Positions 46,680 through 64,000 of a DNA stretch of 64,000 nucleotides are shown here, piece after piece (position 1 is the stretch's first letter; each line of letters opens with the position of its first letter). Where the stretch lies: assembly GCF_024748695.1 (NCBI RefSeq), contig NZ_CP087176.1, positions 3,775,501-3,839,500 on the forward strand, read 5' to 3'. Made by a program: the position numbers and the translations under genes. The notes beneath the pieces are model-generated. The model searched no databases and was not told the origin of the DNA. It saw only the letters and a program-made list of their open reading frames with translations. The stretch is from Pseudomonas sp. B21-040. Its GTDB lineage: Bacteria > Pseudomonadota > Gammaproteobacteria > Pseudomonadales > Pseudomonadaceae.

Positions 46680-47489
46680 ATGCGCCCCAAGGAACTGAAA
46701 CTCTGGACCACCGGTGTCGCCCACCTACTTGACCTGCCTGCAGGGCATGCGCGGTTATCGGCGTTAAGCCATTGGTTGCGCCAGGTGTGTCCGGTCGATC
46801 ATTTCGTCCTGTTCGTCTACGAAGGCAATCACCGACCGTTGGCGCTGTTCGACACCTTTGCCGCCGACAAGCGTGCGGTGTATGTCGATGACTACCAGTG
46901 CGGTCCGTATCTGCTCGATCCGTTCTACCTCGCCTGCACCCGCGGACAAGCGGCGGGACTGTGGCGCTTGCGCCAGTTCGCGCCCGACCACTTCTACCTC
47001 GGCGAGTACTACCTGACTTATTACCAGCAGACCGGACTGGCCGAAGAAGTGGCTTTTTTTGTCGAGCTCGGCGACGGCGCCATGGCCGTTCTATCGCTGA
47101 TGCGCTCCTCTGCCAGTTGCGCGTTCAGTCGTGACGAAATGCAGTTGATCGAATGCGCACAGGCCGTCGTCGAACAAGTCGTCAACGAAGCCTGGCGCTT
47201 GCGTCAGGCGCAACAGCCGCGCCCGGCACAAGACCTCGACTTCAAGATCCGCGAAGCGTTCGATCAGTTCGGCGCGCACATCCTTACTTGCCGCGAACAG
47301 GAAGTGGTGCAGTTGCTGCTGCGCGGTCACTCCAGTGCCTCGGTGGCCGAGCAACTGAGCATCAGCCCCGGCACGGTGAAGATTCACCGCAAGAACATCT
47401 ACGCCAAGCTCGGCATCGGCAGCCAGTCCGAGTTGCTCGGGCTGTTTATCCGCGATCTCACCGGCCAGGAACTGCTCGCCGAAGCCTGA
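46680..47489 (+). CDS. LuxR-family regulator (C-terminal HTH)
   Basis: 269 residues from ATG 46680. Residues 1-~195 form a divergent sensor-like domain (LSALSHWLRQVCPVDHFVLFVYEG ... LGEYYLTYYQQTGLAEEVAFFVELGDGAMAVLSLMRSS). Residues ~205-265 are the LuxR HTH (LTCREQEVVQLLLRGHSSASVAEQLSISPGTVKIHRKNIYAKLGIGSQSELLGLF). There is no receiver domain or recognisable acyl-homoserine-lactone pocket, so it is likely a one-component sensor of a metabolite. It directly precedes the polyamine-type ABC operon on the same strand, separated by a 105-base gap that contains a 16-bp palindrome. Confidence 0.9.
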   Translation: MRPKELKLWTTGVAHLLDLPAGHARLSALSHWLRQVCPVDHFVLFVYEGNHRPLALFDTFAADKRAVYVDDYQCGPYLLDPFYLACTRGQAAGLWRLRQFAPDHFYLGEYYLTYYQQTGLAEEVAFFVELGDGAMAVLSLMRSSASCAFSRDEMQLIECAQAVVEQVVNEAWRLRQAQQPRPAQDLDFKIREAFDQFGAHILTCREQEVVQLLLRGHSSASVAEQLSISPGTVKIHRKNIYAKLGIGSQSELLGLFIRDLTGQELLAEA

Positions 47490-47505
47490 CACCTGAAAAC
47501 GACTC

Positions 47506-47521
47506 TATCCCCCAAGGGATA
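47506..47521. promoter_or_regulatory. Palindrome between the LuxR gene and the ABC operon
   Basis: TATCCC-CCAA-GGGATA is a perfect 6-bp inverted repeat centred ~80 bases upstream of the GTG start at 47595. LuxR-type HTH dimers bind such palindromes, so it is the best candidate operator for the adjacent regulator. It is followed by AT-rich TATACA that could form part of a -10. Confidence 0.5.
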
Positions 47522-47594
47522 TATACAGCGCAAAACCGCGATTGCTAGTTTGGCTCCCGACGCAATGATTGATCACTGCAAGGGGAGCCGCACC

Positions 47595-48710
47595 GTGAAT
47601 GACAACCAGCCAAGCGATATCGAATTCTGCAATGTGGTCAAACGCTATGGCGAGGTGGCGGCCGTCAATGGCCTGAATTTCGCCGTGCGTCGTGGCTCAT
47701 TCCACTCTTTCCTCGGTGGCTCGGGCTGCGGCAAAACCACGACCCTGCGCATGATTGCAGGCTTCGAACAACCGACCAGCGGCGAAGTACGCCTGGCCGG
47801 CAAAAACGTCGCCGGCATACCGGCGTTCGAACGGCCGGTGAACATGGTGTTCCAGCATTACGCCCTGTTCCCGCACCTCACGGTGGCGCAGAACATTGCC
47901 TATGGCTTGCGTTATCGCACGCCGCGCCCGGATAAGAAAACCCAATTGCGCATGGCCGATGAGGCCCTGGAAATGGTTCGCCTCAGCGGCTTCGGCCAGC
48001 GTAAACCGAGCGAACTCTCCGGCGGCCAACAGCAACGTGTCGCCCTCGCCCGGGCGCTGGTCAACAAACCGACCGTGCTATTGCTCGACGAGCCACTGGC
48101 GGCGCTCGACCGCAAGTTGCGCAAGGAAATGCAATCCGAACTGCTGCGCCTGCAGCGCGAAGTCGGCATCACTTTCGTGCTGGTCACCCACGACCAGGAA
48201 GAAGCCTTGTCGATGAGTGACAGCATCAGCGTGATGCACAACGGTTCGATCATCCAGACGGCCACCCCGGAACAACTGTACGAAGCTCCGGCCAGCCGTT
48301 ACGTCGCCGACTTCATCGGCGAATCCAATCTGTTCAACGGCACCGTACGCCACCTGCACGGCAATTCGGTGGTGCTGCGTACCGAGCAAGGCCTGGAGCT
48401 GACCAGCCCGCTGACGCCAACCGGCAAGGCCCTGAGCGCCGACGCCGCCGGTTGCATCGCGGTGCGCCCCGAGTTGATCAGCATTGCCGGCGCCCACGCC
48501 GATCTGGCCCGTGAAGTGAAACTGCAAGGCTGCGTGGAAGACCGCATCTACCTCGGTAATTCCACCGAATACCGCGTGCGCACCCAGGCCTTTGGCGTGG
48601 TCTGTGTGCGGGTTCCCCGCCAGCAGGATCACGGCGCCAATGCATTCGAACACGGCGCTGCAGTGAGCGTCGGCTGGGATCACGCCAATGGCCTGGCCAT
48701 GGCGTTGTAA
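47595..48710 (+). CDS. Polyamine-type ABC transporter ATPase (PotA-like)
   Basis: 371 residues from GTG 47595 (GGGGAG upstream). Walker A at 41-49 (GGSGCGKTT), signature LSGGQQQR, Walker [13 protein letters not shown]-loop VTHDQEEAL, and a C-terminal TOBE domain from about residue 240 ([15 protein letters not shown]). PotA-type ATPases energise import of putrescine, spermidine and related compounds. First gene of a five-gene operon (ATPase, binding protein, two permeases, aldehyde dehydrogenase). Confidence 0.93.
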
Positions 48711-48749
48711 ATCATCGACTCGATTCATCAACCGGATGTGGAGCGTGCT

Positions 48750-49892
48750 ATGGACCAGAAGACGTTTATCAAAACCCTGCGCAGTTGGCAGAACGGCTCG
48801 ATCAGTCGTCGCGAATTTCTTGGCCGCACCGGCCTGGGGATTGCCGCCGCCGTGGTCGCCACCAACATGCCCGGCCTGCTGACGTCCAGCGCAGAAGCGG
48901 CCGAACAGGCCAAGCTGGGGGATCGCCTGTCACTGGCGACGTGGCCGAACTACCACAGCCAGGAAAACCTCGACACCTTCGGCAAAACCACCGGCGCCCG
49001 CGTCTCGATGAGCGTGTTCGGCTCCAACGAAGAAATGCTCGCCAAGTTGCAAGCCGGTGGCAGTGGCTGGGACGTACTGGTTCCGACCAACTACACCATC
49101 AGCACCTACGTCGGTCTGGGCTTGATCGAGCCGCTGGACCTGTCGCGCATTCCCAACTTCGATGCCTCGGCATTCCAGCAAAAATTCATGGCCCAAGGCA
49201 CCGTGGACGGCAAGGTGTACGCCGTGCCAAAAAACTGGGGCACCACCGGCATGCTCTTCGACGCCGGCAAACTGAAGAACGGGCCGAGCAGCTGGAAAGA
49301 GTTCTGGGCCGCCGCCCAAGGCCCTGCCAGCGGCCGGACGATGGTTCACGATTACCAGTTGACCGCCATCGGCAACGCCCTCAAAAGCTTCGGCTACAGC
49401 TTTAACTCCCTCGACCCAAAAGAACTGGCCGACGCGGAAAAACTGTTGATCGAGGTCAAGCCGCACCTGTTCGCCATCAACTCCGACATTCAGCCGTCAA
49501 TGCGCAGCGGCGATGCCTGGCTCGCGATGTCGTGGACCGGCGACGCCTCGCAGTTGCACCGCGACAACGCGCAGATGCAGTTCGAACTGGGCAAGGAAGG
49601 TGGCGAACTGTGGAGTGATTTTTTTGCCATCCCGAAAAGCTCGGAGCACAAGGACGCGGCCTACGCCTTCATCAATTACCTGCTCGACCCGCAGCACAAC
49701 AAGCTCGAAGTGTTGAGTCACGGCTATCCGAGCGGCGACAAACGGGTCGATGCGCTGCTTCCCACCGCGATGCTCAACGATCCGATCATGTACCCGGCCG
49801 CCGAAGCACTCAGCCCACTGGAGTTCGGCGCCGCTGCAACGCTCACCAGCCCGGCGCGCGCCGAACTGATGGCGCGTTTCAAGTCCGCCTGA
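48750..49892 (+). CDS. Polyamine-type ABC transporter binding protein with Tat signal
   Basis: 380 residues from ATG 48750. The N-terminus has a twin-arginine motif and a hydrophobic stretch (SISRREFLGRTGLGIAAAVVATNMPGLLTS), so export is probably by Tat rather than Sec, less usual for PotD-like proteins. The binding-protein core follows: LSLATWPNYHSQENLDTFGKTTGARVSMSVFGSNEEMLAKLQAG, PKNWGTTGMLFDAG and DAWLAMSWTGDASQLHRDN. The ligand is inferred to be an amine from family and context only. GTGGAG ribosome-binding site. Confidence 0.9.
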   Translation: MDQKTFIKTLRSWQNGSISRREFLGRTGLGIAAAVVATNMPGLLTSSAEAAEQAKLGDRLSLATWPNYHSQENLDTFGKTTGARVSMSVFGSNEEMLAKLQAGGSGWDVLVPTNYTISTYVGLGLIEPLDLSRIPNFDASAFQQKFMAQGTVDGKVYAVPKNWGTTGMLFDAGKLKNGPSSWKEFWAAAQGPASGRTMVHDYQLTAIGNALKSFGYSFNSLDPKELADAEKLLIEVKPHLFAINSDIQPSMRSGDAWLAMSWTGDASQLHRDNAQMQFELGKEGGELWSDFFAIPKSSEHKDAAYAFINYLLDPQHNKLEVLSHGYPSGDKRVDALLPTAMLNDPIMYPAAEALSPLEFGAAATLTSPARAELMARFKSA

Positions 49893-49923
49893 TCGCCTGA
49901 CCATGGCCAATGAGGAGTCACCC

Positions 49924-50841
49924 ATGAATGCTGCCGCCCACCCGCAAACGGTGCAGCCAGGCAATGCCCTGTCAATCGAGGTACGTCAACGGCGCAGCCT
50001 CGGTCGGCGGATCACCCTGCTGATGCTCTTGCCTTCGACCTTGTGGTTCCTGCTGCTGTTATTGATGCCGCTGGTCATCATACTGGTCTTCAGTTTCGGC
50101 GAGCGCAGTGCCGTGGGCGGCTACGCCGGTGGCTTCACCCTGGCCAACTACCTGAACCTGGGCTCGCGTGGCGCGGCATTCAGTAACACGCTGATGCTGG
50201 CGCCACTGGGCACCCTGGTGTGCCTGGTCGCGGCCTACCCGCTGGCGTACTTTCTGGCGGTCAAGGTCACCCGTAACCGCTCGCTGTTGCTGACGCTGGT
50301 GATCGTACCGTTCTGGACCAGTTTCCTCATCCGTACCTACGCCTGGATCTTCATCCTCAGCGGCAAGGGCATCCCCGCCCTGCTCGCCAGTCTTGGCCTG
50401 GAAGACGTGCGGCTGATCAACACGCCGTGGGCGGTGCTGATCGGTATCGTCTACGGCTACCTGCCACTGATGGTGTTTCCGATTTACGTCAGCCTCGAAA
50501 AACTCGACAAACGCCTGCTCGAAGCCTCTGCCGATCTCGGTGCCAGCGCATTCGAGAGCTTCCGGCGGATCACCTTGCCGCTGTCCGCGCCGGGAATCAT
50601 CACCGGCGTGATGCTGGTGTTCATCCTGTTGATGGGCGAGTTCCTGATCCCGGCGATTCTCGGCGGCGGCAAAGTGTTCTTCGTCGGCAACGCGCTGGTC
50701 GACTTGTTCCTGCAGTCGCGCAACTGGCCGTTCGGCAGTGCCCTGGCAATGACGCTGGTGGCGATGATGCTGCTGATCATCGGCGTGTATTTGAAACTGG
50801 TGGCGCGCTACGGCGGCCGCCCTGCCGATGGAGGGTTGTGA
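49924..50841 (+). CDS. Polyamine-type ABC transporter permease (PotB-like)
   Basis: 305 residues from ATG 49924 (GAGGAG six bases upstream, in preference to ATG 49903). Six membrane helices after a ~35-residue cytoplasmic start; the EAA loop that contacts the ATPase reads LEASADLGASAFESFRRITLPLSAPGI. It forms the membrane channel with the next gene. Stop and next start are one base apart. Confidence 0.92.
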   Translation: MNAAAHPQTVQPGNALSIEVRQRRSLGRRITLLMLLPSTLWFLLLLLMPLVIILVFSFGERSAVGGYAGGFTLANYLNLGSRGAAFSNTLMLAPLGTLVCLVAAYPLAYFLAVKVTRNRSLLLTLVIVPFWTSFLIRTYAWIFILSGKGIPALLASLGLEDVRLINTPWAVLIGIVYGYLPLMVFPIYVSLEKLDKRLLEASADLGASAFESFRRITLPLSAPGIITGVMLVFILLMGEFLIPAILGGGKVFFVGNALVDLFLQSRNWPFGSALAMTLVAMMLLIIGVYLKLVARYGGRPADGGL

Positions 50842-50842
50842 C

Positions 50843-51670
50843 ATGTGGCTGCGCAGCTATTCAACCTCGCTGTACCTGTTTCTCTACGCGCCGATCGCGT
50901 TGATCGTGCTGTTCAGTTTCAACGCCGGGCGCAGTGGCCTGGCATTCGAATGCTGTTCGGTGCAATGGTTTGGTCGCGCCTTCGGCAACCCGTTCATCAT
51001 GGAAGCGCTGGGGCACAGTGCGTTCATCGCCTTCACGTCGGCAGTGATCGCCACATTGTTCGGCACCCTGGCAGTGTTCGGCTTGCAACGCGCGGGTAAA
51101 AAAGTACGCCTGTTGTTCGATGCACTGACCTATTGCGCGATCATCGTGCCGGGCATCGTCATCGGCATCTCGACGCTGATTGCGTTCATTACCCTGTTCG
51201 ACCTGATCAATCCGCTGCTGGCAAGCTGGATACCCAATGTGCCGCGTCTGAACATGGGTTTTTCCACGGTGATTGCTGCGCATTCGCTGTTTACCATGGC
51301 GCTGGTCATGGTGATCGTGCGCAGCCGCGTCGACTCGCTGGACAAGGCCTTGCTCGAAGCTTCAGCGGACCTCTATGCCCCACCCATGCAAACGTTCTGG
51401 CGGGTCACCCTGCCGCAGATCAGCCCGGCAATCATGGCCGGATTCCTGCTGGCGTTCACCTTCAGCTTCGACGACTTCATTATCGCGTTCTTCGTTGCCG
51501 GTTCCGAGACGACGTTGCCGATCTACATCTTTTCATCGATCCGCCGCGGCGTGACGCCAGAAATCAACGCGGTCTCGACCGTCATTATCTGCGCCTCACT
51601 GGCCCTGCTATTCACTTCCCGCTCTCTGCAAAACCGCCGTACCGGCGTCCAGGAGTCAAACCATGCGTGA
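50843..51670 (+). CDS. Polyamine-type ABC transporter permease (PotC-like)
   Basis: 275 residues from ATG 50843 (GGAGGG upstream). Six membrane helices; starts LYLFLYAPIALIVLFSFNAGRSGLAFECCSVQWFGRAF, a PotC-type beginning, with EAA loop LLEASADLYAPPMQTFWRVTLPQISPAI and LLAFTFSFDDFIIAFFVAG. Its last eight bases overlap the aldehyde dehydrogenase start, so the two are translationally coupled. Confidence 0.92.
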   Translation: MWLRSYSTSLYLFLYAPIALIVLFSFNAGRSGLAFECCSVQWFGRAFGNPFIMEALGHSAFIAFTSAVIATLFGTLAVFGLQRAGKKVRLLFDALTYCAIIVPGIVIGISTLIAFITLFDLINPLLASWIPNVPRLNMGFSTVIAAHSLFTMALVMVIVRSRVDSLDKALLEASADLYAPPMQTFWRVTLPQISPAIMAGFLLAFTFSFDDFIIAFFVAGSETTLPIYIFSSIRRGVTPEINAVSTVIICASLALLFTSRSLQNRRTGVQESNHA

Positions 51671-53135
51671 TCAGCTTTACATCAACGGAGAGTGGGTCAG
51701 TCCGGACCTGGGCGGTTATCTGGACGTCATCGACCCGGCCACCGAAGCGGTTTTCCATCGGGTAGCCGCAGGCACCGAAGAAGACGTCGATCACGCGGTG
51801 CGCGCCGCACGCAGAGCCTTTGATAACGGCTGGAGCCAGACCACCGGCGCCGAACGCGCGCAATGGCTGGAGGCATTGGCTGATGAACTGGAAAACAGCC
51901 AACCGGTCTTGGCCGAACTGGAAGTGCGTGACAACGGCAAACCATTGCCCGAAGCGCAGTGGGACGTCGGCGATGCCATTGGTTGTTTCCGTTATTACGC
52001 CGGCCTGGCCCGCGAACTGGATCAGCAGCAGGATCAACCGCTGGCGTTGCCGGACGCACGCTTTCGCTGCCGTATCCGTCATGAGCCGATTGGCGTCGCC
52101 GGGCAGATCATTCCCTGGAACTACCCATTGTTGATGGCGGCGTGGAAAGTCGCGCCGGCCTTGGCTGCAGGTGCCACGGTGGTGTTGAAACCGTCCGAGC
52201 TGACGCCTCTCACAGCACTGGAGCTGGCCGCTGCCGCCGACCGTATCGGTTTGCCCGCCGGGGTATTGAACGTGGTCACCGGCCTCGGTGCCGACGCCGG
52301 CAGCCCGCTCACCGAACATCCCGGCGTGGACAAACTGGCCTTCACCGGCAGCGTGCCCACCGGAGCGAAAATCATGTCGGCGGCCGCCCGCGACATCAAG
52401 AACATCAGCCTCGAACTGGGCGGAAAATCTGCATTCATCGTATTCGACGACGCCGATGTCGAGGCGGCGGTGGAATGGATTCTGTTCGGGATTTTCTGGA
52501 ACCAGGGCCAGGTGTGCAGCGCCACGTCACGCCTGCTGGTGCAGGAAAACATTGCCCCGCGATTGATCGAACGTCTGGTGGAGGAAACCCGCAAGATCAG
52601 TATCGGCCCGGGCATGGAACCCGGCGTCCTGCTCGGCCCACTGGTCAGTCAAAGCCAGCATGACAAGGTCCTTGGTTTCATTGATCAAGGCCTCGCCAGC
52701 GGTGCCCGTCTGCTCATCGGTGGTCGGCGGCCGGCGCATCTCCCTAAAGGTTACTTTATTGAACCGGCGATCTTCGACGAGCCCGGGCACAGCAGCATTC
52801 TCTGGCGCGAAGAGGTGTTCGGCCCGGTACTGTGCATCAAGCGTTTCAAGACCGAAGAGCAAGCGGTGCAAATGGCCAACGCCAGCCGCTTCGGCCTCGC
52901 CGCCGCGGTAATGAGCGCTGATTTGCAACGCACCGCCCGCGTCGCCAACCAGTTACGCGCGGGAATCATCTGGGTCAACTGCTCGCAGCCGACCTTCGTC
53001 GAAGCCCCGTGGGGCGGGATGAAACACAGCGGGATTGGCCGCGAGTTGGGCCAGTGGGGACTGCACAATTACCTGGAGGTGAAGCAAGTCACCGAGTACA
53101 TCAGTGATCAGAAGTGGGGCTGGTACCTGAAATAG
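51663..53135 (+). CDS. Aldehyde dehydrogenase, betaine/amino-aldehyde type
   Basis: 490 residues. Active-site residues visible: N153 (PWNYP), E251 (SLELGGKS), C285 (NQGQVCSATSR). The stretches FWNQGQVCSATSR and IIWVNCSQPTFVEAPWGG resemble the betaine-aldehyde/aminoaldehyde dehydrogenase (ALDH10-like) branch. It would oxidise an omega-aminoaldehyde, such as 4-aminobutanal or 3-aminopropanal, to the amino acid with NAD+. Fused to a polyamine-type importer operon, this fits catabolism of an imported amine after an amine oxidase or transaminase step; no gene for that step is in the operon. Close paralogue of the convergent gene at 53190. Confidence 0.9.
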   Translation: MRDQLYINGEWVSPDLGGYLDVIDPATEAVFHRVAAGTEEDVDHAVRAARRAFDNGWSQTTGAERAQWLEALADELENSQPVLAELEVRDNGKPLPEAQWDVGDAIGCFRYYAGLARELDQQQDQPLALPDARFRCRIRHEPIGVAGQIIPWNYPLLMAAWKVAPALAAGATVVLKPSELTPLTALELAAAADRIGLPAGVLNVVTGLGADAGSPLTEHPGVDKLAFTGSVPTGAKIMSAAARDIKNISLELGGKSAFIVFDDADVEAAVEWILFGIFWNQGQVCSATSRLLVQENIAPRLIERLVEETRKISIGPGMEPGVLLGPLVSQSQHDKVLGFIDQGLASGARLLIGGRRPAHLPKGYFIEPAIFDEPGHSSILWREEVFGPVLCIKRFKTEEQAVQMANASRFGLAAAVMSADLQRTARVANQLRAGIIWVNCSQPTFVEAPWGGMKHSGIGRELGQWGLHNYLEVKQVTEYISDQKWGWYLK

Positions 53136-53153
53136 TCGCTCTCGGATCAGCAG

Positions 53154-53179
53154 GCAGGAACCGGCCAGCCGGTTCCTGC
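53154..53179. terminator. Hairpin between the two convergent operons
   Basis: GCAGGAACCGGC and GCCGGTTCCTGC form a perfect 12-bp stem with a two-base CA centre (53154-53179). Short T-rich sequence follows on the plus side (CACCTTTCTC). It lies between the stops of the two paralogous aldehyde dehydrogenases and probably ends both transcripts. Confidence 0.78.
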
Positions 53180-53189
53180 AGCACCTTTC

Positions 53190-54668
53190 TCAGTTCAGAT
53201 ACCAGCCCCACGCCTCGCCGTTGTACCGGGTGATTTGCTTGGTCTCGAGGTAATTGTTGTAGCCCCACTCCCCCAGCTCTCGGCCGATACCGCTCTGCTT
53301 GTAACCGCCCCACGGCGCTTCGACAAAGGTCGGCTGCGAGCAGTTGACCCACACGATACCGGCGCGAAAACGTCGAGCCACGCGTTCGCAACGTGGAATA
53401 TCACGGGACATGACGGCCGCCGCCAGACCGAACGGCGAGTCATTGGCCAGGTGTATCGCTTCGGCCTCGGTATCAAATGCACGCAGACACACCACCGGGC
53501 CGAAGATCTCTTCGCGCCACACCGAGCTGTCTTGCGGCACATCGGCGAAAATCGCCGGCGTCAGGAAGTACCCCTTCTGCAAGTGCGCCGGACGCGTCCC
53601 TCCGTACACCAGGCGCGCGCCTTCTCGCTGGCCGACCGCAATCGCCTCGAGGACTTTGTCCAGTTGCCCCTGACTGACCAGCGGCCCAAGCTTCACACCC
53701 TCGGTGAAGCCCTCGCCGATCTGGATCTGCTCGGTAGCCACGATCAGACGCGCCAGCAGCGCCGGGTACAATGCGCGCTCCACCAACACCCGCGAAGTGG
53801 CCGAACAGACCTGGCCCTGGTTCCAGAAAATCCCGAACAGAATCCATTCCACTGCGGCATCGAGGTCGCTGTCGGCGAAGATCACGAACGGCGATTTGCC
53901 GCCCAGTTCCAGGCTGATATTTTTGATCTCGGCGGCCGCGGCTTGCATGATCTTGCGCCCGGTCGGCACACTGCCGGTGAAGGCGATCTTGTCCACATCC
54001 GGGTGTTCAGCCAGCGACGCGCCCGCCTCTCGCCCGAGCCCGCTGACGATGTTCAACACCCCGGCCGGCAAGCCGGCCTGATCGGCAATGCGTGCCAGTT
54101 CAATGGCGGTCAGCGGCGTCAGCTCCGAAGGTTTGAGCACCACGGTGCAGCCGGCTGCCAGCGCAGGGGCGACTTTCCACGAGGCCATCAGCATCGGGAA
54201 ATTCCACGGGATGATCGCGGCGACCACGCCTACCGGCTCCTTGATCACCGAGGAGTTGAAGCGCTCATCCGGCACGCTGATTGACTGTTCGCCGTGTTGA
54301 TCCGAGCCTTCGGCGAGTCCGGCATAGAAATCGAAACAACCGGCGGTGTCGGCGATGTCCCACTGCGCTTCCGGCAGCGGCTTGCCGTTGTCGTGTACTT
54401 CAATCGCGGCCAGTTCGTCCTGTCGCGCACGGATGCCGTCGGCGATTCGCCGCAGCACGTGTGCGCGTTGCGCGCCCGTCCAACGCGGCCAGTCGCCTTC
54501 GTCGAAGGCCAGGCGTGCGGCGGCGACGGCCAGGTCGATGTCTTCTGCCGTAGCGGCAGCGACCTGCGCCAGCACCGACTCGTCGCCCGGGTCGAGCGTC
54601 TCGAACACTCCGCGCTGGACCGGCGCGATCCACTCACCACCGATGTACAGCCGTTGATAATTCCCCAT
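53190..54668 (-). CDS. Aldehyde dehydrogenase, betaine/amino-aldehyde type (second copy)
   Basis: 492 residues from ATG 54668, with AAGGAG six bases upstream. Active-site residues N156 (PWNFP), E254 (SLELGGKS), C288 (NQGQVCSATSR). Large parts are the same as in the convergent dehydrogenase (for example VNCSQPTFVEAPWGG, SGIGRELGEWG), so the two are paralogues of the aminoaldehyde type. It is the last gene of the long minus-strand operon, eleven bases after the nucleotidyltransferase. Substrate unproven. Confidence 0.9.
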   Translation of the reverse strand: MGNYQRLYIGGEWIAPVQRGVFETLDPGDESVLAQVAAATAEDIDLAVAAARLAFDEGDWPRWTGAQRAHVLRRIADGIRARQDELAAIEVHDNGKPLPEAQWDIADTAGCFDFYAGLAEGSDQHGEQSISVPDERFNSSVIKEPVGVVAAIIPWNFPMLMASWKVAPALAAGCTVVLKPSELTPLTAIELARIADQAGLPAGVLNIVSGLGREAGASLAEHPDVDKIAFTGSVPTGRKIMQAAAAEIKNISLELGGKSPFVIFADSDLDAAVEWILFGIFWNQGQVCSATSRVLVERALYPALLARLIVATEQIQIGEGFTEGVKLGPLVSQGQLDKVLEAIAVGQREGARLVYGGTRPAHLQKGYFLTPAIFADVPQDSSVWREEIFGPVVCLRAFDTEAEAIHLANDSPFGLAAAVMSRDIPRCERVARRFRAGIVWVNCSQPTFVEAPWGGYKQSGIGRELGEWGYNNYLETKQITRYNGEAWGWYLN

Positions 54669-54679
54669 GACAGACTCCT

Positions 54680-55441: not shown

Positions 55442-55466
55442 TGCGACCCTCCCGATTACAAATGAG

Positions 55467-56975: not shown

Positions 56976-58029
56976 GGGAGGATCCTTGAACCAATCGATA
57001 AGGGGTCTCGCGCAACGCGGCGAGGGTGGTGGGCGGCAGTTCATCGCGCCAGCCCGGCACGTGTTCGTTTAGCCATGCGCGCAGGGGCGCAAAGGCGTCT
57101 GCCTCCAGTGCTCGCACAAACAGACCGAGGGTGCGCGGCAGGTGCGCCAGGTAACCGTGTTTGCCGTCGCGCCCGGCCAGGCGCACGAAAATCCCCAGCA
57201 CCTTGGCATGGCGTTGGGCGGCCAGTCGCCGGTAGTCCTCGAGAAAGCGTGGTGCGTCGAGCTCCGGGCGTTGCATCAGGTAATGCGTCATCAGCGCCAC
57301 GCGTAATGCTTCGGGTACATTGCGACGTGCGTCTTCGAGCAACGACATCAAGTCATAGGCCGCCGAACCGAGCAAAGCGTCCTGGAAATCCAGCAGACCG
57401 CAGGCTGCAATACCTTCGCGACCTTCGAGCAACATCAGGTTGTCGACGTGAAAATCGCGCAGCACCAACGCTTCGCGACGCTGTGCGACCTCTTCACAGG
57501 CCTCGGCAAACAGGTTCAGAAACGACTCACGCAGTGCCAGCGCGGCGTCCCTGCCGATCAGCAGCGGGATGTACCAGTCGATCAGCAACGCATACTCGTT
57601 TCTCAACTGCCGGGCATCGTAAGGCGCCATGTCTGCCGTTGGCGGCGCGCGATGCAATGCCACCAGCGCATCGACCGCCAGGTGATACAACGCGCCTTCC
57701 GGATGCCCCGCGGCCAGCAATCGGGTGTAGGTGTCGTGACCGAAATCTTCGATCAGTGCCAACCCCGCCGCTTCGTCGACCTGTCGCAAGGCCGGAGCGG
57801 AAAGCCCCAGCCCGTGCAAGTGGCGGGCAACCTGCACAAACGGACCGATCGGCTCGCTGTGCGGTGGCGAATCCATCAGCAGCAAGCCTTCACCGCTCAA
57901 GCGAAAATAGCGCCGGGTCGAGGCATCCGCCGGCAATGCGATCAGTGGCGCCCTGGCGAAGCCGGCACGCGCCAGAAAGGCTGCGCGCTGGCTTTCACGA
58001 TCGGGCGATGACGCACGTGTGTCAGTCAT
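56962..58029 (-). CDS. APH-fold small-molecule kinase, AmgK-like
   Basis: 355 residues from ATG 58029 (a GTG at 58038 is also possible). Aminoglycoside-phosphotransferase fold: N-lobe LPADASTRRYFRLSGEGLLLMD, catalytic loop LVLRDFHVDNLMLLEG (HxDN) and metal motif GLLDFQDALLGSAAYDLMSLLEDAR. The pattern ADASTRRYFR is characteristic of the AmgK group, anomeric kinases for N-acetylmuramate/N-acetylglucosamine. Position next to a GlmU-type nucleotidyltransferase supports a sugar-1-phosphate product. The housekeeping AmgK/MurU pair is expected elsewhere, so this would be a specialised second copy. Confidence 0.82.
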   Translation of the reverse strand: MTDTRASSPDRESQRAAFLARAGFARAPLIALPADASTRRYFRLSGEGLLLMDSPPHSEPIGPFVQVARHLHGLGLSAPALRQVDEAAGLALIEDFGHDTYTRLLAAGHPEGALYHLAVDALVALHRAPPTADMAPYDARQLRNEYALLIDWYIPLLIGRDAALALRESFLNLFAEACEEVAQRREALVLRDFHVDNLMLLEGREGIAACGLLDFQDALLGSAAYDLMSLLEDARRNVPEALRVALMTHYLMQRPELDAPRFLEDYRRLAAQRHAKVLGIFVRLAGRDGKHGYLAHLPRTLGLFVRALEADAFAPLRAWLNEHVPGWRDELPPTTLAALRETPYRLVQGSSHGHL

Positions 58030-58034
58030 GGCAA

Positions 58035-58379
58035 TCACCGGATCATGTAGACCTTTTTCACCGTCTCATGGACGGTGCATACGCCTTTCCAGTCCTTGCG
58101 GAAAAAGGCCGCGGTGTCGGGTTTGATCTCGATCACTTCGCCGGACTCGTGAACGTAGGTGCAGCGACCTTCGAGGAAATGGCAGAACTCGTCGCTGGTG
58201 ACGTGGCAAAACCACTTGCCCGGCGTGCAGATCCACACACCGCACTCGGACTGGCCTTCAGGGCCTTTGTGCAGCACCACGCCAGAGATGTGGGACTCAC
58301 CTTCGAGCATGGTCGGGATCACGCCCCAGTCCTTGACGTCGGTGATTTGCAACGGGTTGTACAGAAACGGGGTAGTCAT
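58035..58379 (-). CDS. Small cupin (DUF861-type), copy 2
   Basis: 114 residues, a single cupin barrel: DWGVIPTMLEGESHISGVVLHKGPEGQSECGVWICTPGKWFCHVTSDEFCHFLEGRCTYVHESGEVIEIKPDTAAFFRKDWKGVCTVHETVKKVYMI. The DUF861/cupin_3 marks are W.C..(S/D)DEFCHFLEG and the closing WKGVCTVHET. Only one or two of the usual metal histidines remain. Clear paralogue of the cupin at 58419. Ethanolamine-utilisation and ureidoglycine-type enzymes belong to this superfamily, but no function can be assigned. It overlaps a possible GTG start of the kinase gene. Confidence 0.85.
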   Translation of the reverse strand: MTTPFLYNPLQITDVKDWGVIPTMLEGESHISGVVLHKGPEGQSECGVWICTPGKWFCHVTSDEFCHFLEGRCTYVHESGEVIEIKPDTAAFFRKDWKGVCTVHETVKKVYMIR

Positions 58380-58418
58380 TGTGGTTCTCCAGATAAAAGT
58401 CAGTGTCAGCCCGCAGGT

Positions 58419-58787
58419 TCAAGCCAGCATGTAGACGTTACGCAGGGTTTCCCGGACGTGGCATTCGCCGGTCCAGCCGGCCGGGAACAGCACCAGGGTG
58501 TTGGCTCGGACTTCGATGACTTCGCCGTTGTCATTGCGATAAGTGGCCTCGCCGGCAAGGAAGTGGCACAGCTCATCGCGGGGAATCGACAGTCGCCAGC
58601 GCCCGGGCGTGCACACCCAGAGCCCGGTTTCGGGACTGTTATTCGGCCCTTTGAACAGTAGCCGTCCGCTGGAATGCGAAATGCCTTCGACGGCGTCGCT
58701 CTGTACGCCCCAGTCCACCAGATCGGTGCGACTGCTGACGGATTCGAGGTACGGCGTGATACCCGCCGTGGTGTTTTGCTCAGGCAT
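58419..58787 (-). CDS. Small cupin (DUF861-type), copy 1
   Basis: 122 residues from ATG 58787, inside the last codons of the glycosyltransferase gene (eight-base overlap). Same layout as the cupin that follows: DWGVQSDAVEGISHSSGRLLFKGPNNSPETGLWVCTPGRWRLSIPRDELCHFLAGEATYRNDNGEVIEVRANTLVLFPAGWTGECHVRETLRNVYML. The first histidine of the second copy's HVTSDEF is replaced by serine here. The pair arose by tandem duplication and may form a heterodimer. The longer frame reaching 59018 is antisense noise. Confidence 0.83.
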   Translation of the reverse strand: MPEQNTTAGITPYLESVSSRTDLVDWGVQSDAVEGISHSSGRLLFKGPNNSPETGLWVCTPGRWRLSIPRDELCHFLAGEATYRNDNGEVIEVRANTLVLFPAGWTGECHVRETLRNVYMLA

Positions 58788-60063
58788 TGTCAAGCACCTT
58801 GTCGAGAATGGCGGCCGCGTCCGCAGGCCCTTTGCGTGATTGCATGTGTGTGCTGGTGATTTGCAGGCGTTGGCGCATCGTCTGGTCGTTGAGACACGCG
58901 GCGAGTTTTTCCGCCAATTGCGTTTCATTCCACTCGTAGCGATCGAGCTTGAAACCATGGCCGCTTTCTTCGGCGCGCATGGCGTTGTCGTGACCGTCCC
59001 AGACGTAGGACATGACAATCGCCGGCTTACCGAAAAACAGGCATTCGGTGAAACTGTTGTTGCCGCCGTGGTGAATCACCGCATCGACCTGGGCAATCAC
59101 CGAAGGCTGTGGGAACCAGTTGGAGATCAGCACGTTGTCCGGCAGGTTCGGGTATTCATCAAGATGCTCACCGACGTTGAACAATGCGCGATAAGGCAGC
59201 TTGCCTACTGCCGTGATCAGACGCTGGAGCAGATCGACATCGCCGGAACCCAGGCTGCCGAAACTGACATACAGCAAAGGCTTGTCGTTGTTGGCCTTGA
59301 ACGGCGGAATCTCGTAGGTCGTGTCCTGCCGCACGCACCCTTGCAGATAGTGAAAACGCTCCGCCGGCAATGGATGACGGCGCTCGAACTTGACGGCGTC
59401 CGGGTACAGCAACAGGTTCATGTACGGCGAGGCTTCGAAGAACGTACCGAGCGGGTACGGCTGCTCGCCATGGGCTTGCAGGAAGTGGTTGAAGTCCTCA
59501 TGGATCGGCCCGACCGCCTCTTCGAAGCGCCGGCGAAATTCAGCATGGCCAGCCTTGTCGTGAACGCTCATGCCTGACAGGTGCGGCGGGATTTCCGGGT
59601 CTTCGATCTCGTTTTCCGAGCAGGAAATGATCCGCACCCATGGCTTGCCGTATTGCTTGATCGCCGGGAACAGGATCACGTTGTCGACGCAGATCAGGTC
59701 AGGCTTGACCTTGTCCAGAACGGCCGGCAGGTCCTTTTGCGCCCATTTCGCGGTTTCAACGATGGCCGCCCAGCATTCCTTCACGTAGTTGTCGATTTGA
59801 TCCAGAGGGGTTTTACGGAAATTGGGAATGTGGCCGTTGATGAAATCGACCCAATAGCGGGCCATTTCTTCGGCCGGCATCGGTGCCGACATGTTGACCA
59901 TGTGTTCTTCAAACCCGTAACCGGCATACACGCCGCTCATGCCCGGGTCGGTGAGGAATACCGCTTTGTGGCCAAGGGCTTCGCATGCCTGGGCAATACC
60001 GACGGAGTTCAGTGCCGGGCCATAAGCGGCTTCCGGAAAAAAGGCGATCACTTTCTGTTTCAT
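58780..60063 (-). CDS. GT1-family UDP-glycosyltransferase (MGT-like)
   Basis: 427 residues, two Rossmann lobes. The N-lobe starts KVIAFFPEAAYGPALNSVGIAQACEALGHKAVFLTDPG. The C-lobe has the nucleotide-sugar motif SNWFPQPSVIAQVDAVIHHGGNNSFTECLFFGKPAIVMSYVWDGHDNAMRAEE; the usual DQ-xx-NA ending is replaced by DGHDNA, which may change donor choice. LLYVSFGSLGSGDVDLLQRLI precedes it. GT1 enzymes transfer a sugar from UDP to a small hydrophobic or amine acceptor. Located directly behind the ABC importer genes and before the cupins. Acceptor unknown; cytoplasmic. Confidence 0.9.
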   Translation of the reverse strand: MKQKVIAFFPEAAYGPALNSVGIAQACEALGHKAVFLTDPGMSGVYAGYGFEEHMVNMSAPMPAEEMARYWVDFINGHIPNFRKTPLDQIDNYVKECWAAIVETAKWAQKDLPAVLDKVKPDLICVDNVILFPAIKQYGKPWVRIISCSENEIEDPEIPPHLSGMSVHDKAGHAEFRRRFEEAVGPIHEDFNHFLQAHGEQPYPLGTFFEASPYMNLLLYPDAVKFERRHPLPAERFHYLQGCVRQDTTYEIPPFKANNDKPLLYVSFGSLGSGDVDLLQRLITAVGKLPYRALFNVGEHLDEYPNLPDNVLISNWFPQPSVIAQVDAVIHHGGNNSFTECLFFGKPAIVMSYVWDGHDNAMRAEESGHGFKLDRYEWNETQLAEKLAACLNDQTMRQRLQITSTHMQSRKGPADAAAILDKVLDNA

Positions 60064-60096
60064 CGAGAGGTACTCCTGCCTGGTCTTTTTTATTGT

Positions 60097-61176
60097 TCAG
60101 CGCGTCAATACGCGGGCATGGCGGGCCTGCCAGCCCAACCGGATGTTCATGCCGATAGCAAAATGAGCAAATTCGAACTGCGAGGACGGCACGCGGACGA
60201 TCAGCGCCTTGTCGCTGAGCGCCGTCAGCACATGCACGTTGGTGTCGAGGCCGTGATAAGCGATTTCGACGATTTTTCCGGTGACCTGATTGGCGCAGTC
60301 GCCCCCCTCCGCAGGCAGCACCTGCAAACGTTCCGGGCGCACGACGACAGCGACTTTCTGCCCTGGAATCAACGGTTCAACGGTTTCGACAGCCAGCTCC
60401 TGGCCGTTGACGCGCACCGTGTGTGCACCAGAGCGCACGCCTTCAAACAGGTTGCTGACGCCAATGAAATTGGCGACAAACCGGCTGTTGGGGTTTTCGT
60501 AGAGTTCAGTCGGACTGCCGCACTGGCAGACCTTCCCGCCATCGAGTACGGCCATGCGGTCCGACATCACCAGGGCTTCTTCCTGGTCGTGGGTAACGAT
60601 GATGAAGGTGATGCCGCTCTCGAGTTGCAAGCGCTTGAGTTCAAGCTGCATTTTTTCCCGGAGTTTTTTATCCAGTGCGCCCAACGGTTCGTCGAGCAGC
60701 AACACCCGTGGGCGTTTGACCAGCGCCCGCGCCAGGGCGACGCGCTGGCGTTGACCACCGGAAAGTTGATCCGGCTTGCGCTCGGCCAACTCGCCCAGCT
60801 GCGCCGTGCTCAGCACTTCATCGACCCGGCGACGGATTTCCGCTTCCGGCAAACGCTCCATCTCCAGGCCGTACGCAATGTTCTTGCGCACCGTCATGTT
60901 GGGAAACAGCGCATAGGACTGGAACATCAGGTTCAGTGGACGCTTGTTGGCCGGCAGCGGCGAGATGTCCTTGCCGTCCAGATAAATGCAACCGGCGCTG
61001 GGCGTCTCGAAACCGGCGAGCATGCGCAACAGGGTGGTCTTGCCGCAGCCGGACGGCCCGAGCAACGCAAAGAACTCGTTCTCGCGGATGTTCAGTGACA
61101 CCTCGTCGACCGCCAGACCGTTGCCATAAGACTTGCTGACCTTGTCCAGGATCAGTACCGCAGATGAGTTATTCAT
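60097..61176 (-). CDS. Polyamine-type ABC transporter ATPase (PotA-like), second system
   Basis: 359 residues. Walker A LLGPSGCGKTTLL, signature LSGGQRQR, Walker B LLLDEPLGALD, H-loop [13 protein letters not shown] domain at the C-terminus (NFIGVSNLFEGV). Starts eight bases before the end of the permease gene above it and ends 33 bases before the glycosyltransferase gene. Drives the importer encoded by the three preceding genes. Confidence 0.93.
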   Translation of the reverse strand: MNNSSAVLILDKVSKSYGNGLAVDEVSLNIRENEFFALLGPSGCGKTTLLRMLAGFETPSAGCIYLDGKDISPLPANKRPLNLMFQSYALFPNMTVRKNIAYGLEMERLPEAEIRRRVDEVLSTAQLGELAERKPDQLSGGQRQRVALARALVKRPRVLLLDEPLGALDKKLREKMQLELKRLQLESGITFIIVTHDQEEALVMSDRMAVLDGGKVCQCGSPTELYENPNSRFVANFIGVSNLFEGVRSGAHTVRVNGQELAVETVEPLIPGQKVAVVVRPERLQVLPAEGGDCANQVTGKIVEIAYHGLDTNVHVLTALSDKALIVRVPSSQFEFAHFAIGMNIRLGWQARHARVLTR

Positions 61177-61975
61177 GGGTGCGAGGAGCCTTGTTGAGAC
61201 GCTGCGAAGCCAGCAGCGCGGTAATGCTGACCAGCATCACCAACGTCGCCAGAGCATTGATTTCCGGGGTGACGCCAAAACGGATCATGGCGTAGATCTG
61301 CATCGGCAACGTGGTGGAAGCCTGGCCGGACCCGGAGTTGAAAAAGGCGATGATGAATTCGTCCACCGACAAGGTGAACGAGAGCAAACCGCCCGCCAGC
61401 ACGCCGGGAAAAATCGCCGGCAACAACACCCGGCGAAACGTGGTGGCCCAGCTCGCGCCGAGATCGATCGAAGCTTCGAGGATCGAATAGTCGAAGTGTT
61501 TGAGGCGCGTGCGCACGACCGCGCAGACGAAGGCGATGTTGAACACGGCGTGGCTGATGATGATCGAGTGCAAGCCCAGCCCGACTTTGAGCAGGTTGAA
61601 GAAGCTCAGCAGCGCAATGGCCAGGACGATGTCGGGAATGATCATGGGCGCCATCAGCAGCGTGTCGACCACTTGCCCCTTGTCGTTGCCCTTGCGGCGC
61701 AGTTCGATGCCGAGCGCGAGGAATGTCCCTAGCACACAGGCAATGAAGGTCGCCGAGAGGGCCACGATCAGGGTGTTGAGCGCCGCCGACAAAATCGCCG
61801 AGTTATGCGCCAGCGCCACATACCACTTCAGCGATACGCCGCCCCAGGCCGTCGGTAATCCGGACTTGTTGAACGACAGCAGAATCAATACCAGGATCGG
61901 TACATAAAGGAAGGCATACACCAACCCCAGGTGCGTAGTGAGTACGGTGCCGCTTACGGAACGAGACTGGCTCAT
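61169..61975 (-). CDS. Polyamine-type ABC transporter permease (PotC-like), second system
   Basis: 268 residues, six membrane helices, starting GLVYAFLYVPILVLILLSFNKSGLPTAWGGVSLKWYVALAHN. EAA loop ILEASIDLGASWATTFRRVLLPAIFPGV and the substrate-path segment LLSFTLSVDEFIIAFFNSGSGQASTTLPMQIYAMIRFGVTPEINA. Its ATG overlaps the stop of the previous permease (ATGA), and its end overlaps the ATPase gene. Confidence 0.93.
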   Translation of the reverse strand: MSQSRSVSGTVLTTHLGLVYAFLYVPILVLILLSFNKSGLPTAWGGVSLKWYVALAHNSAILSAALNTLIVALSATFIACVLGTFLALGIELRRKGNDKGQVVDTLLMAPMIIPDIVLAIALLSFFNLLKVGLGLHSIIISHAVFNIAFVCAVVRTRLKHFDYSILEASIDLGASWATTFRRVLLPAIFPGVLAGGLLSFTLSVDEFIIAFFNSGSGQASTTLPMQIYAMIRFGVTPEINALATLVMLVSITALLASQRLNKAPRTHE

Positions 61976-62832
61976 GCGCGACCTCCTTCTGCGCGACGAG
62001 CAACCAGCGCCTGCACGAACAACAGAATCAGCATGATCGCGATCAGGAAGAAACTTAGCGCCGCGCCGAACGGCCAGTCCCGCGCCGTGAGGAATTGCGA
62101 GTAGATCAGGTTGCCGACCATCTGCACTTGCTTGCCGCCCAACAGGTCGGCGGTGATGAAGTTGCCGATGCTCAGGACGAATACAAACACCGCGCCAGCC
62201 GCCACACCGGGCACGCTCAACGGCAGGATGATCCGGCGAAAGGTCATCCAGCCCGAAGCACCAAGGTCTTTCGAGGCGTCCCAGAGTTCGTTATTGATGC
62301 GCGACAACGAGGAGAAAATCGCCAGGATCACAAACGGGATGTAGTTGTAGACCAGCCCCAGCACCACCGACGCTTCGGTGTACAGCAGGCTGATCGGTTC
62401 ACCGCTATAGCCGAACAACTGCAGCATGCGGTTGATCAGGCCTTCGCGATTGAGCAGGACGATCCACGCATAGGTGCGGATCAGGTAGTTGCTCCAGAAC
62501 GGCAGCATTACCAGAAACAGAAACACCGCTTGATGGCGCCGCGGAGCGCGGGCAATCGCGTAGGCCGCCGGATAGCCGATCAGCACCGCAAACAGTGTCG
62601 CCAGGCCGGCGATTTTGGCCGACTTGAGCAGGATCCCGAGGTACAACGGATCGAATGCGCGTTGGTAGTTTTCCCAGGTGAACAGCCAGTCGATGCCGCC
62701 GTAGGCACCGCGTTCGACGAAGCTGTAGACCAGCACCAGAATGCACGGCACCACCAGAAATATCAGCAGCCAGCCAAAGCCGGGCGCAAGAAGCCAGGCC
62801 GACAAACGCCTGTCAGCATGCAAAGCACTCAT
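61972..62832 (-). CDS. Polyamine-type ABC transporter permease (PotB-like), second system
   Basis: 286 residues from ATG 62832, preceded by GGAGG. Six helices; starts WLLAPGFGWLLIFLVVPCILVLVYSF, EAA loop LWDASKDLGASGWMTFRRIILPLSVPGV, and DLLGGKQVQMVGNLIYSQFLTARDWPFGAALSF near the end. In-frame codons up to 62886 have no ribosome-binding site. Second gene of the importer set. Confidence 0.92.
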   Translation of the reverse strand: MSALHADRRLSAWLLAPGFGWLLIFLVVPCILVLVYSFVERGAYGGIDWLFTWENYQRAFDPLYLGILLKSAKIAGLATLFAVLIGYPAAYAIARAPRRHQAVFLFLVMLPFWSNYLIRTYAWIVLLNREGLINRMLQLFGYSGEPISLLYTEASVVLGLVYNYIPFVILAIFSSLSRINNELWDASKDLGASGWMTFRRIILPLSVPGVAAGAVFVFVLSIGNFITADLLGGKQVQMVGNLIYSQFLTARDWPFGAALSFFLIAIMLILLFVQALVARRAEGGRA

Positions 62833-62928
62833 TACCCATATCCTCCCGCCCCGGAACAGAGGCGGCTTGCGAGCGTGGCGAGGCATGCAGGCATGCCTCG
62901 GTTTGATGCGGCTTACGGTTGTTGAGGC

Positions 62929-63984
62929 TTAGTTCTGCGCCGCCATGATTTCGGTGACGGCCCGGGTATAGGCTTTCTGGGTGGTGCCGCCCAGATCGCG
63001 CAATTGCTCCATCTTCAACAACTCGCTCGGGGCGATGGTCAAGTTGGGATATTGCTTGAGCAGGTCAGCGGACAAACCGGCCATTGCGGCCTGGTTGGGG
63101 ATTTTGTAGAGGATGTTTTCCGCAACCCATACGTGGTTTTCCTTGGCGAGCATGAAGTTGAGGAATTTGAACGCCTCCTCCTGATGCTTCGAGCTTTTCA
63201 GCACGACCATGGTGTCCACCCACAGATCGGAACCTTCTTTGGGCACGACGAATTTGATCGCCGCGTTGGCCTGGGTCCCGTAGTTGCACCAGCCATCCCA
63301 GGCGTGGGCCATCAGCGATTCGCCGGAAGCGAGTTTCGAGTAGAAGGTGGTGTCGTCGAAGGCGAGGATGCGTTTCTTGGTAGCGATCAACTGGTCGCGG
63401 ACGGCGGCGACGTGGCTTGCGTCGTTGTCGTTGACCGACCAGCCCTTGGCCAGGAAAGCGGCGCCGAGCATCCAGCGGTCAGTGGCAAGCATCGTCACTT
63501 TGCCTTTGAGCGCATCGCTTGGGTTGAGCAGCTCATTCCAGCTGGTGGGCGCCGGCGTCACTTTGTCGGAGCGATAGCAGATACCGGTCGTGCCCCAGGT
63601 ATACGGCACCGAGAAATGGTTGCCCGGGTCATATTCCAGCTGGGTGGCTTCGGGATAGAGGTTCTTGAGGTTGGGAACCTTGACCGGATCGATATCCGCC
63701 AGCAGACCCTGCTTGTGCAGGACTTCGGCGAACGGTGAGGAGACAAACACAACGTCATAGCCTTCACCGCCAGACGCCATCAGCTTGCCCATGATTTCTT
63801 CGTTGGTCGCGTGCAAAGCCTTGTCGATGTCAACGCCGCTGGCCGCTTTGAACTTGTCCAGCGCATCCGGGGCCATGTAACCGTCCCAGATGGAAATCAC
63901 CATATCTTTTGCACTTGCAGCCTGTGATGCGATCGCCAGGGAAACACTTAATCCCAGACACATAAGGCCTTTCAGCTTTCTCAT
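62929..63984 (-). CDS. Polyamine-type ABC transporter binding protein, second system
   Basis: 351 residues from ATG 63984 (GTG 63993 is an alternative), with a Sec signal peptide (LKGLMCLGLSVSLAIASQAASA). PotD-like core: VISIWDGYMAPDALDKFKAASGVDIDKALHATNEEIMGKLMASGGEGYDVVFV, PYTWGTTGICYRSD and SGESLMAHAWDGWCNYGTQAN. First visible gene of the minus-strand operon; its promoter and any earlier genes lie beyond the window edge. Unlike the plus-strand counterpart it is Sec- rather than Tat-exported. Confidence 0.92.
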   Translation of the reverse strand: MRKLKGLMCLGLSVSLAIASQAASAKDMVISIWDGYMAPDALDKFKAASGVDIDKALHATNEEIMGKLMASGGEGYDVVFVSSPFAEVLHKQGLLADIDPVKVPNLKNLYPEATQLEYDPGNHFSVPYTWGTTGICYRSDKVTPAPTSWNELLNPSDALKGKVTMLATDRWMLGAAFLAKGWSVNDNDASHVAAVRDQLIATKKRILAFDDTTFYSKLASGESLMAHAWDGWCNYGTQANAAIKFVVPKEGSDLWVDTMVVLKSSKHQEEAFKFLNFMLAKENHVWVAENILYKIPNQAAMAGLSADLLKQYPNLTIAPSELLKMEQLRDLGGTTQKAYTRAVTEIMAAQN

Positions 63985-64000
63985 AATACTCACCCGACGA

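Follow-up and report, generated by a model that had tools for sequence, protein, structure and literature searches.

A conserved glycosyltransferase-cupin-aldehyde dehydrogenase cassette in Pseudomonas sp. B21-040 and its possible role in amine catabolism

The Puu route of putrescine utilisation is a gamma-glutamyl amine pathway. For the Ipu isopropylamine route, the part of the description available to us includes no glycosyltransferase (PMC6776027). In the peptidoglycan salvage of Pseudomonas, sugars are activated by the AmgK-MurU/GlmU type of enzymes; AmgK together with MurU produces UDP-N-acetylmuramic acid (PMC5371407). Here we analyse a stretch of 64,000 nucleotides of Pseudomonas sp. 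B21-040 (contig positions 3775501-3839500 in the 6.75-Mb genome, hereafter the window), in which an 11-gene minus-strand operon, potD2-potB2-potC2-potA2-GT1-cupB-cupA-kinase-ALDH3-NTase-ALDH2, combines a Pot-type ABC importer (importer 2) with a glycosyltransferase (GT), two cupins, an AmgK-like kinase, a GlmU-like nucleotidyltransferase (NTase) and two aldehyde dehydrogenases (ALDHs). It is faced on the plus strand by LuxR-potA1-potD1-potB1-potC1-ALDH1, termed module A. An earlier note on the window had described a LuxR gene and a five-gene operon opposite at least eleven minus-strand genes; every gene it named lies at the position and belongs to the family it gave, and the gaps within the minus-strand operon (about -14 to +42 bases) bear out its spacing of mostly under 45 bases.

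With the Puu and Ipu routes the locus shares putative amine import, oxidation and an aldehyde dehydrogenase, and by analogy we propose that a temporary group may mask the amine here as well. It differs from them in that two glycosyltransferases and cupins are encoded in place of, or beside, a gamma-glutamyl ligase; the window cassette contains neither such a ligase nor an amidotransferase, and no gamma-glutamyl-amine ligase was found among the genes scanned, which extend from window position 44918 to position 9698 of the continuation beyond the window (L009). In two other genomes (G666 and G519), the second glycosyltransferase gene, GT2, is directly followed by a PuuA-like gene of the glutamine-synthetase family and then by a flavin oxidase gene. 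A literature search returned no description of this gene set, which is weak evidence since most subscription papers lie outside its coverage. The reading that we put forward, and consider quite possible if short of probable, is that of a horizontally spread cassette which catabolises an amine-bearing compound via a glycosylated intermediate, the sugar being re-activated in Pseudomonas.

Conservation of the minus-strand cassette

GT1 was surveyed in 398 genomes of the same genus including our own, and was present in 27. The loci were then compared at set identity and coverage limits, with genes called by an open reading frame (ORF) caller based on GC content at third codon positions, which missed or fused some genes; neighbouring proteins at other loci were scanned selectively, several of them without a match. 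At the 26 loci of genus relatives, cupA and ALDH3 were each found 26 times (ALDH3 in two pieces in G376) and cupB 24 times, next to potA2 (23) and potD2 (22) of importer 2. The kinase was present at 23 loci, although interrupted by an in-frame stop in G194 and G120, and the NTase at 18; further genes were a GntR regulator (22), GT2 (21), ALDH2 (18) and a DAO-family flavoprotein (17), while potD1, ALDH1 and LuxR of module A were detected at four, four and three loci, respectively. Some absences reflect contig ends (e.g. in G231 and G123). G353 and G376 carry GT1-cupA-ALDH3 only. At a decayed locus (G305, L160/L159), kinase, NTase, GT2 and DAO genes are fragmented and importer 2 was not found, with GT1-cupB-cupA-ALDH3 intact at full length, as if the core had outlasted the remaining cassette genes.

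The cassette occurs beyond the genus, too. In a second genus of the same family it is present at all three loci, with the kinase and without the NTase. In a draw across the phylum 8 of 398 genomes, our own included, were GT1-positive, and in another class (that of G698, hereafter the other class), whose closest named relatives appear to be alphaproteobacterial, 11 of 289. Among plasmid records, 15 matched a GT, and seven of these were examined. Those of Pararhizobium gei, Rhizobium sp. ACO-34A, Shinella sp. HZN7 and Ruegeria conchae keep the order GT2-GntR / potDBCA2-GT1-cupB-cupA-ALDH3, ALDH2 adjoining GT2 instead at three rhizobial-type loci, and the plasmids of Natrialba magadii and Natronorubrum aibiense carry GT1-cupin-ALDH3 with a ROK-family and a sugar-phosphate-mutase gene. 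ALDH3 is thus encoded at both haloarchaeal loci, and a cupin accompanies GT1 at 47 of 48 loci (26+3+17+2, own excluded), the exception being G519, where GT1 lies at a contig end. Since the minus-strand order is kept in the genus, the second genus and the other class (roughly 55-90% identity), this operon is no chance neighbourhood; its anatomy and its conservation are solid.

A maximum-likelihood tree built from 46 GT rows and rooted at the midpoint, with several branches being long, separates GT1 from GT2 with full support for either group, and the GT1 sequences of Pseudomonas and of the haloarchaea are nested within the spread of the other class; the ALDH3 tree was poorly resolved. Because of the patchy distribution and the plasmid location, taken with the GT tree, horizontal transfer appears to be the simplest account of how the cassette spread. 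Two isolated records may be mentioned here. An 81%-identical GT1 (P0011) is credited to Archangium minus, by contamination or recent transfer, and the seventh plasmid examined, from Pseudomonas frederiksbergensis (H14; L203), lacks the cassette and holds only fragments of a 45%-identical GT, next to genes for type VI secretion and PAAR proteins.

Module A behaves differently. potD1 was present in 36 of the 398 genus genomes, 17 of them GT1-positive and 19 without GT1. It occurs in 17 of the 27 GT1-positive genomes against 2.4 expected (Fisher 1.4e-13, shared ancestry ignored), yet module A lies at the cassette locus in only five (our own, G107, G156, G159 and G129); in the other 12, potD1 is on another contig or 46 to 160 kb away (G194, G128, G276, G274). 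Besides the five linked loci, we examined potD1 loci in 18 further genomes of the 36 (13 without and five with GT1), where LuxR was called in 16, potD1 in 17 and ALDH1 in 17, in variable flanks. One of these loci is cut by a contig end (G228), G274, G276 and G128 show small insertions of a few genes behind LuxR, and in G080 the greater part of the module is missing. In Ruegeria conchae, LuxR-potADBC1 adjoins the cassette again. Because potD1 so often occurs without GT1 or far from the cassette, the two operons are separate modules with a tendency to share genomes, and the potD1 genomes lacking GT1 rule out one inseparable unit. The earlier proposal that import, aldehyde oxidation and glycosyl transfer belong together thus holds for GT1, the cupins, importer 2 and ALDH3, which form one conserved unit, and is not supported for the plus-strand operon.

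Some module A loci show further arrangements. G046 (L231), where the GT cassette is missing, combines module A with a convergent ALDH2 orthologue (86%); this may be a remnant or an intermediate arrangement. G107 (L142), G156 and G159 share two genes past GT2 as well as another Pot-type importer; the G107 copy of one of these genes, the only copy scanned, matched ectoine hydrolase best, below the cut-off.

Binding proteins, glycosyltransferases and oxidising enzymes

Like PotABCD polyamine importers, both window systems have ATPases scoring above the potA cut-off (Table 1), and their binding proteins retain the equivalents of Trp34, Tyr37, Trp229, Trp255, Asp257 and Tyr293 of E. coli PotD. They differ in the acidic residues, for which we take Asp168/Glu171 and Asp257 to be the two amine sites of E. 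coli PotD. Asp257 is retained in all rows aligned (37/37 for PotD2, 7/7 for PotD1, our own gene counted twice in each set), while the position of Glu171 holds Trp in 37/37 PotD2 and Thr in 7/7 PotD1 rows; the loss of this second-site Glu is established. In addition, Tyr85 is lost in PotD2. By the alignments, Asp168 is replaced as well, by Thr in the window PotD2 (HMMER alignment to E. coli PotD) and by Tyr in PotD1, the latter placed via PotD relatives, as the listed alignments did not include E. coli PotD. The two proteins also stay below the equivalog cut-offs, with 148 (PotD2) and 131 bits (PotD1) against 582 for the NCBIfam PotD model and 141 and 108 bits against 636 for PotF. As each binding protein keeps one of the carboxylates and the greater part of the aromatic cage but has lost the second-site Glu, the polyamine-type import named in the earlier note becomes doubtful; judged from these residues, the label 'polyamine' is probably wrong and the substrate is probably a monoamine or an N-substituted amine. 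We reject a pure polyamine operon on the binding-site residues together with the presence of NTase, kinase and GTs.

GT1 has a GT-B fold with a UDPGT-like C-terminal domain, and at E 1e-30 GT1 and GT2 (47% identical) are the sole matches in their own genome. They depart from the macrolide/UGT-like GT1 family at the N-terminal-domain His, which we take to be its catalytic residue. This His is present in the UGT203A2, CalG1 and 2iya alignments, whereas the position is Pro in 170/170 GT1 rows and Ala in 33/33 GT2 rows, with Glu11 invariant in the same alignment; the absence of the His is therefore established. A D-Q donor motif is usual in the family, and GT1 reads 'DGHDN' at the place expected for it. 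Among solved structures, those of spider-mite UGTs (203A2, 202A2) come closest to GT1, closer than macrolide GTs from bacteria; that the present bacterial family may lie near the donor of the mite genes is speculation.

Metal-dependent cupins carry HxH...E as their motif 1. In the 17 cupins aligned HxH is replaced by WxC or WxL, and DUF861 proteins without an assigned function head the fold matches. Flavoproteins of the DAO family were found with at least 60% identity at 17/26 genus loci and with 27-30% at 5/17 loci of the other class. Close to the Natrialba core there are genes for a glutamine-synthetase-family protein, a flavin-oxidase-like protein and an amidotransferase. In G957 (L217/L224), a GT, a cupin, a GcvT-like gene and a second GT are followed by ALDH3, a flavoprotein that, named by eye, looks like the old-yellow-enzyme/trimethylamine dehydrogenase type, and a protein combining Fe-S and electron-transfer flavoprotein beta (ETF-beta) parts; this core may adjoin an N-demethylation system.

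Sugar genes and surroundings of the cassette

The kinase was found in 24 of the 398 genus genomes, all of them GT1-positive (expected 1.6, p 1.5e-35, shared ancestry ignored). Judged by sequence, kinase and NTase resemble the AmgK-MurU/GlmU activation in pairing a putative anomeric-type sugar kinase with a GlmU-like uridylyltransferase. They differ from it in lying within an amine-type operon and in scoring below the model cut-offs: the kinase reaches 238 of 500 and 142 of 550 bits with two AmgK equivalog models, and with the best GlmU model the NTase scores 283 bits where the cut-off is 505, the GlmU cut-offs being set for the two-domain protein. The NTase aligns with the N-terminal domain of GlmU structures and ends there, the uridylyltransferase domain being present over its length. 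A 457-codon frame of GlmU length (40% identical to the NTase) and the only kinase paralogue (37%) sit elsewhere in the genome. Kinase relatives at 53-54% identity occur in alphaproteobacterial metagenome-assembled genomes (MAGs), found without view of the gene context. Among 80 loci kept in a contig scan for the NTase, one held a close relative (Pseudomonas sp. GM74, 80%), the others reaching 50% or less.

At the loci of genus relatives, second genus and other class, the kinase is present in 23/26, 3/3 and 0/17 cases and the NTase in 18/26, 0/3 and 0/17; both are accessory additions on the Pseudomonas side. The expectation that GT, kinase, NTase and cupin genes would be conserved together with transporter and ALDH genes thus proved right for GT1 and the cupins, with importer 2 and ALDH3, and was not supported for kinase and NTase. 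In the haloarchaea, the ROK and phosphosugar-mutase genes beside the core point to an independent route to a sugar-1-phosphate; the Natrialba pair matches glucokinase and archaeal GlmM models best, both below cut-off. In one MAG (G845), a GH13 gene lies upstream of GT1. As donor sugar, N-acetylglucosamine (relatives of NTase and kinase) and glucose (Natrialba kinase, GH13 gene) are both candidates.

The features of the locus are listed in Table 1. The minus-strand operon starts with potD2 inside the window and associated genes continue beyond its edge, where GntR, GT2 and the flavin oxidase gene lay out of view of the earlier note; past the DAO gene follow an AraC gene and then unrelated genes including type VI secretion. 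The family of the small cupin-like ORF was found at 16 of the compared loci. Promoter scans gave 1 and 2 sites versus 4.6 and 2.1 in shuffled sequence, and the terminator counts (20 versus 15.7 and 10 versus 7.6 in shuffles) were near chance. An antisense open frame of 1102 codons (window 55353-58661, plus strand) runs through ALDH3, kinase and cupA and looks like a by-product of GC-rich coding rather than a gene.

Table 1. Genes of the two facing operons and of the adjoining region (window numbering unless L009 is given)
Feature	Position	Strand	Basis and remarks
LuxR-type regulator (GerE helix-turn-helix), module A	46680..47489	+	domain scan; orthologue called in 16/18 further potD1 loci and in Ruegeria conchae
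potA1, ABC ATPase, module A	47550..48710	+	TIGR01187 potA 365.8 bits, above cut-off 355.6
potD1, Tat-signal solute-binding protein	48738..49892	+	family scan and alignments
potB1, permease	49903..50841	+	family scan
potC1, permease	50828..51670	+	family scan
ALDH1, betaine-/aminoaldehyde-type	51663..53135	+	family scan
ALDH2, betaine-/aminoaldehyde-type	53190..54683	-	family scan
NTase, GlmU uridylyltransferase domain without acetyltransferase domain	54680..55441	-	family scan and structure alignment; listed ORF (to 55624) too long, gene start near 55441
ALDH3, core aldehyde dehydrogenase of cassette	55467..56975	-	below cut-off of all NCBIfam models among the matches listed (25 of 41); start near 56975
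AmgK-like APH-fold kinase	56962..58038	-	238 bits, cut-off 500
cupA, DUF861/Cupin_3	58035..58379	-	family scan
cupB, DUF861/Cupin_3	58419..58787	-	family scan; 46% identical to cupA; 8-base overlap with GT1
GT1, GT-B fold glycosyltransferase without canonical His	58780..60063	-	family scan, fold match, alignment
potA2, ABC ATPase	60097..61176	-	TIGR01187 389.4 bits, above cut-off 355.6
potC2, permease	61169..61975	-	family scan
potB2, permease	61972..62886	-	family scan
potD2, solute-binding protein, first gene of minus operon	62929..63984	-	family scan; listed start GTG at 63993
GntR/FCD regulator	64177-65109	divergent from minus operon	family scan
GT2, second GT1-family gene	ORF opens at 65106, gene probably starts near 65205; GntR and GT2 at L009 2177-4488		ORF overlaps GntR ORF
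Small cupin-like ORF, 123 aa	L009 4550-4921	-	27% similar to cupB; no NCBIfam match
DAO-family flavoprotein (flavin oxidase)	66928-68349 (L009 4928-6349)	-	family scan

A possible amine pathway and its alternatives

The presence of importers and of GntR and LuxR regulators fits uptake and catabolism. PotDBCA2 would import the amine, the LuxR-linked PotADBC1 being a second, independently inherited importer. With a nucleotide sugar as donor, GT1 and GT2 would glycosylate the substrate itself or an intermediate formed early from it, the amine being the most likely site, and the cupin encoded beside GT1 might process or resolve the glycosyl intermediate. Oxidation of the carbon skeleton to an acid would fall to the flavin oxidases near many cassette copies, together with ALDH3, ALDH1 and ALDH2. 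In Pseudomonas, kinase and NTase could convert the freed sugar to a UDP-sugar, making the sugar a recycled handle comparable to glutamate in the gamma-glutamyl route. Acceptor, sugar, order of steps, role of the cupin, recycling and regulation are all proposals that we infer from gene content. A more specific version, in which the sugar is a recyclable amine mask (the His-less GT pair forming an N-glycosyl amine, the cupin handling the glycosylamine or imine, oxidation proceeding while the amine is masked, and the sugar then being freed and re-activated by kinase and NTase in Pseudomonas or by ROK kinase and sugar-phosphate mutase in haloarchaea), we regard as rather doubtful.

Several observations weigh against catabolism via a glycosylated intermediate. 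As the kinase and the NTase are missing from all 17 other-class loci and the NTase from 8 of the 26 genus loci, sugar recycling cannot be essential. The conserved core contains no glycosidase, which leaves the release of the sugar unexplained, and the clues to the sugar conflict, being of N-acetylhexosamine type in Pseudomonas and of glucose or glucosamine type in Natrialba. The flavin oxidase is not fixed and its position varies. At the 17 other-class loci, ALDH3 is missing from seven (G519 being cut by a contig end), potD2 from seven and both from six; G839, G815, G1018, G800, G928 and G845 encode GT1 with a cupin but neither importer 2 nor a match to ALDH3, in some cases on short contigs, so that the GT1-cupin pair may serve a role unrelated to amines. 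PotD2 keeps an Asp one place past the Asp168 position in 37/37 rows and its second site may therefore not be wholly lost; nor is the importer class proof of an amine substrate. Finally, the co-occurrence counts within the genus are not independent of phylogeny.

Alternatively, the GTs could serve detoxification by conjugating a toxic amine, an aldehyde or the acid made by the ALDHs for storage or excretion, with kinase and NTase supplying the donor only. We consider this unlikely, as the cassette genes include no exporter and instead two importers, three ALDHs and GntR and LuxR regulators, and as the joint retention of two diverged GTs and cupins in different classes suggests catabolic steps in a set order. 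The imported amine might instead feed the biosynthesis of a glycosylated product, be it an osmolyte, a signal or a secondary metabolite. Macrolide-type GT1s, NDP-sugar genes and a LuxR regulator are common in clusters of this kind, and an osmolyte would suit haloarchaeal and marine hosts. No scaffold-building enzyme is present among the recognised genes near the core, however, many flanking genes being without annotation, and ALDHs and flavin oxidases indicate oxidation, just as the importer and the FCD-type GntR fit catabolism, making biosynthesis quite unlikely.

Very unlikely in our view is the salvage of a natural glycoside, that is, import of a sugar-amine conjugate, transfer of its sugar back onto UDP by a reversed GT and oxidation of the aglycone amine. 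Reversible GT1 enzymes are known, and PotD1 matches the PDB entry 6hly, named agropine permease (E 1.8e-11), which indicates that sugar-amine ligands occur in this class of solute-binding proteins. But with UDP-sugar as a product there would be no use for a sugar kinase and an NTase, and the residues compared at the PotD2 site form an invariant aromatic cage. That an ordinary polyamine operon merely stands next to passenger sugar genes draws on the occurrence of module A alone (19 of the 36 potD1 genomes without GT1) and is highly improbable; the minus-strand order conserved from the genus to the other class contradicts it for that operon, so that it applies solely to how the plus- and minus-strand operons are connected.

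If catabolism via a glycosylated intermediate proves true, the cassette would represent an undescribed amine pathway shared by proteobacteria and haloarchaea. It would assign a task to the DUF861 cupins (most of their closest relatives with a solved structure are listed as of unknown function) and would reveal GT1 enzymes that work without the standard His, possibly as N-glycosyltransferases. The labels 'spermidine/putrescine transporter' and 'MGT family glycosyltransferase' would then be misleading on these genes.

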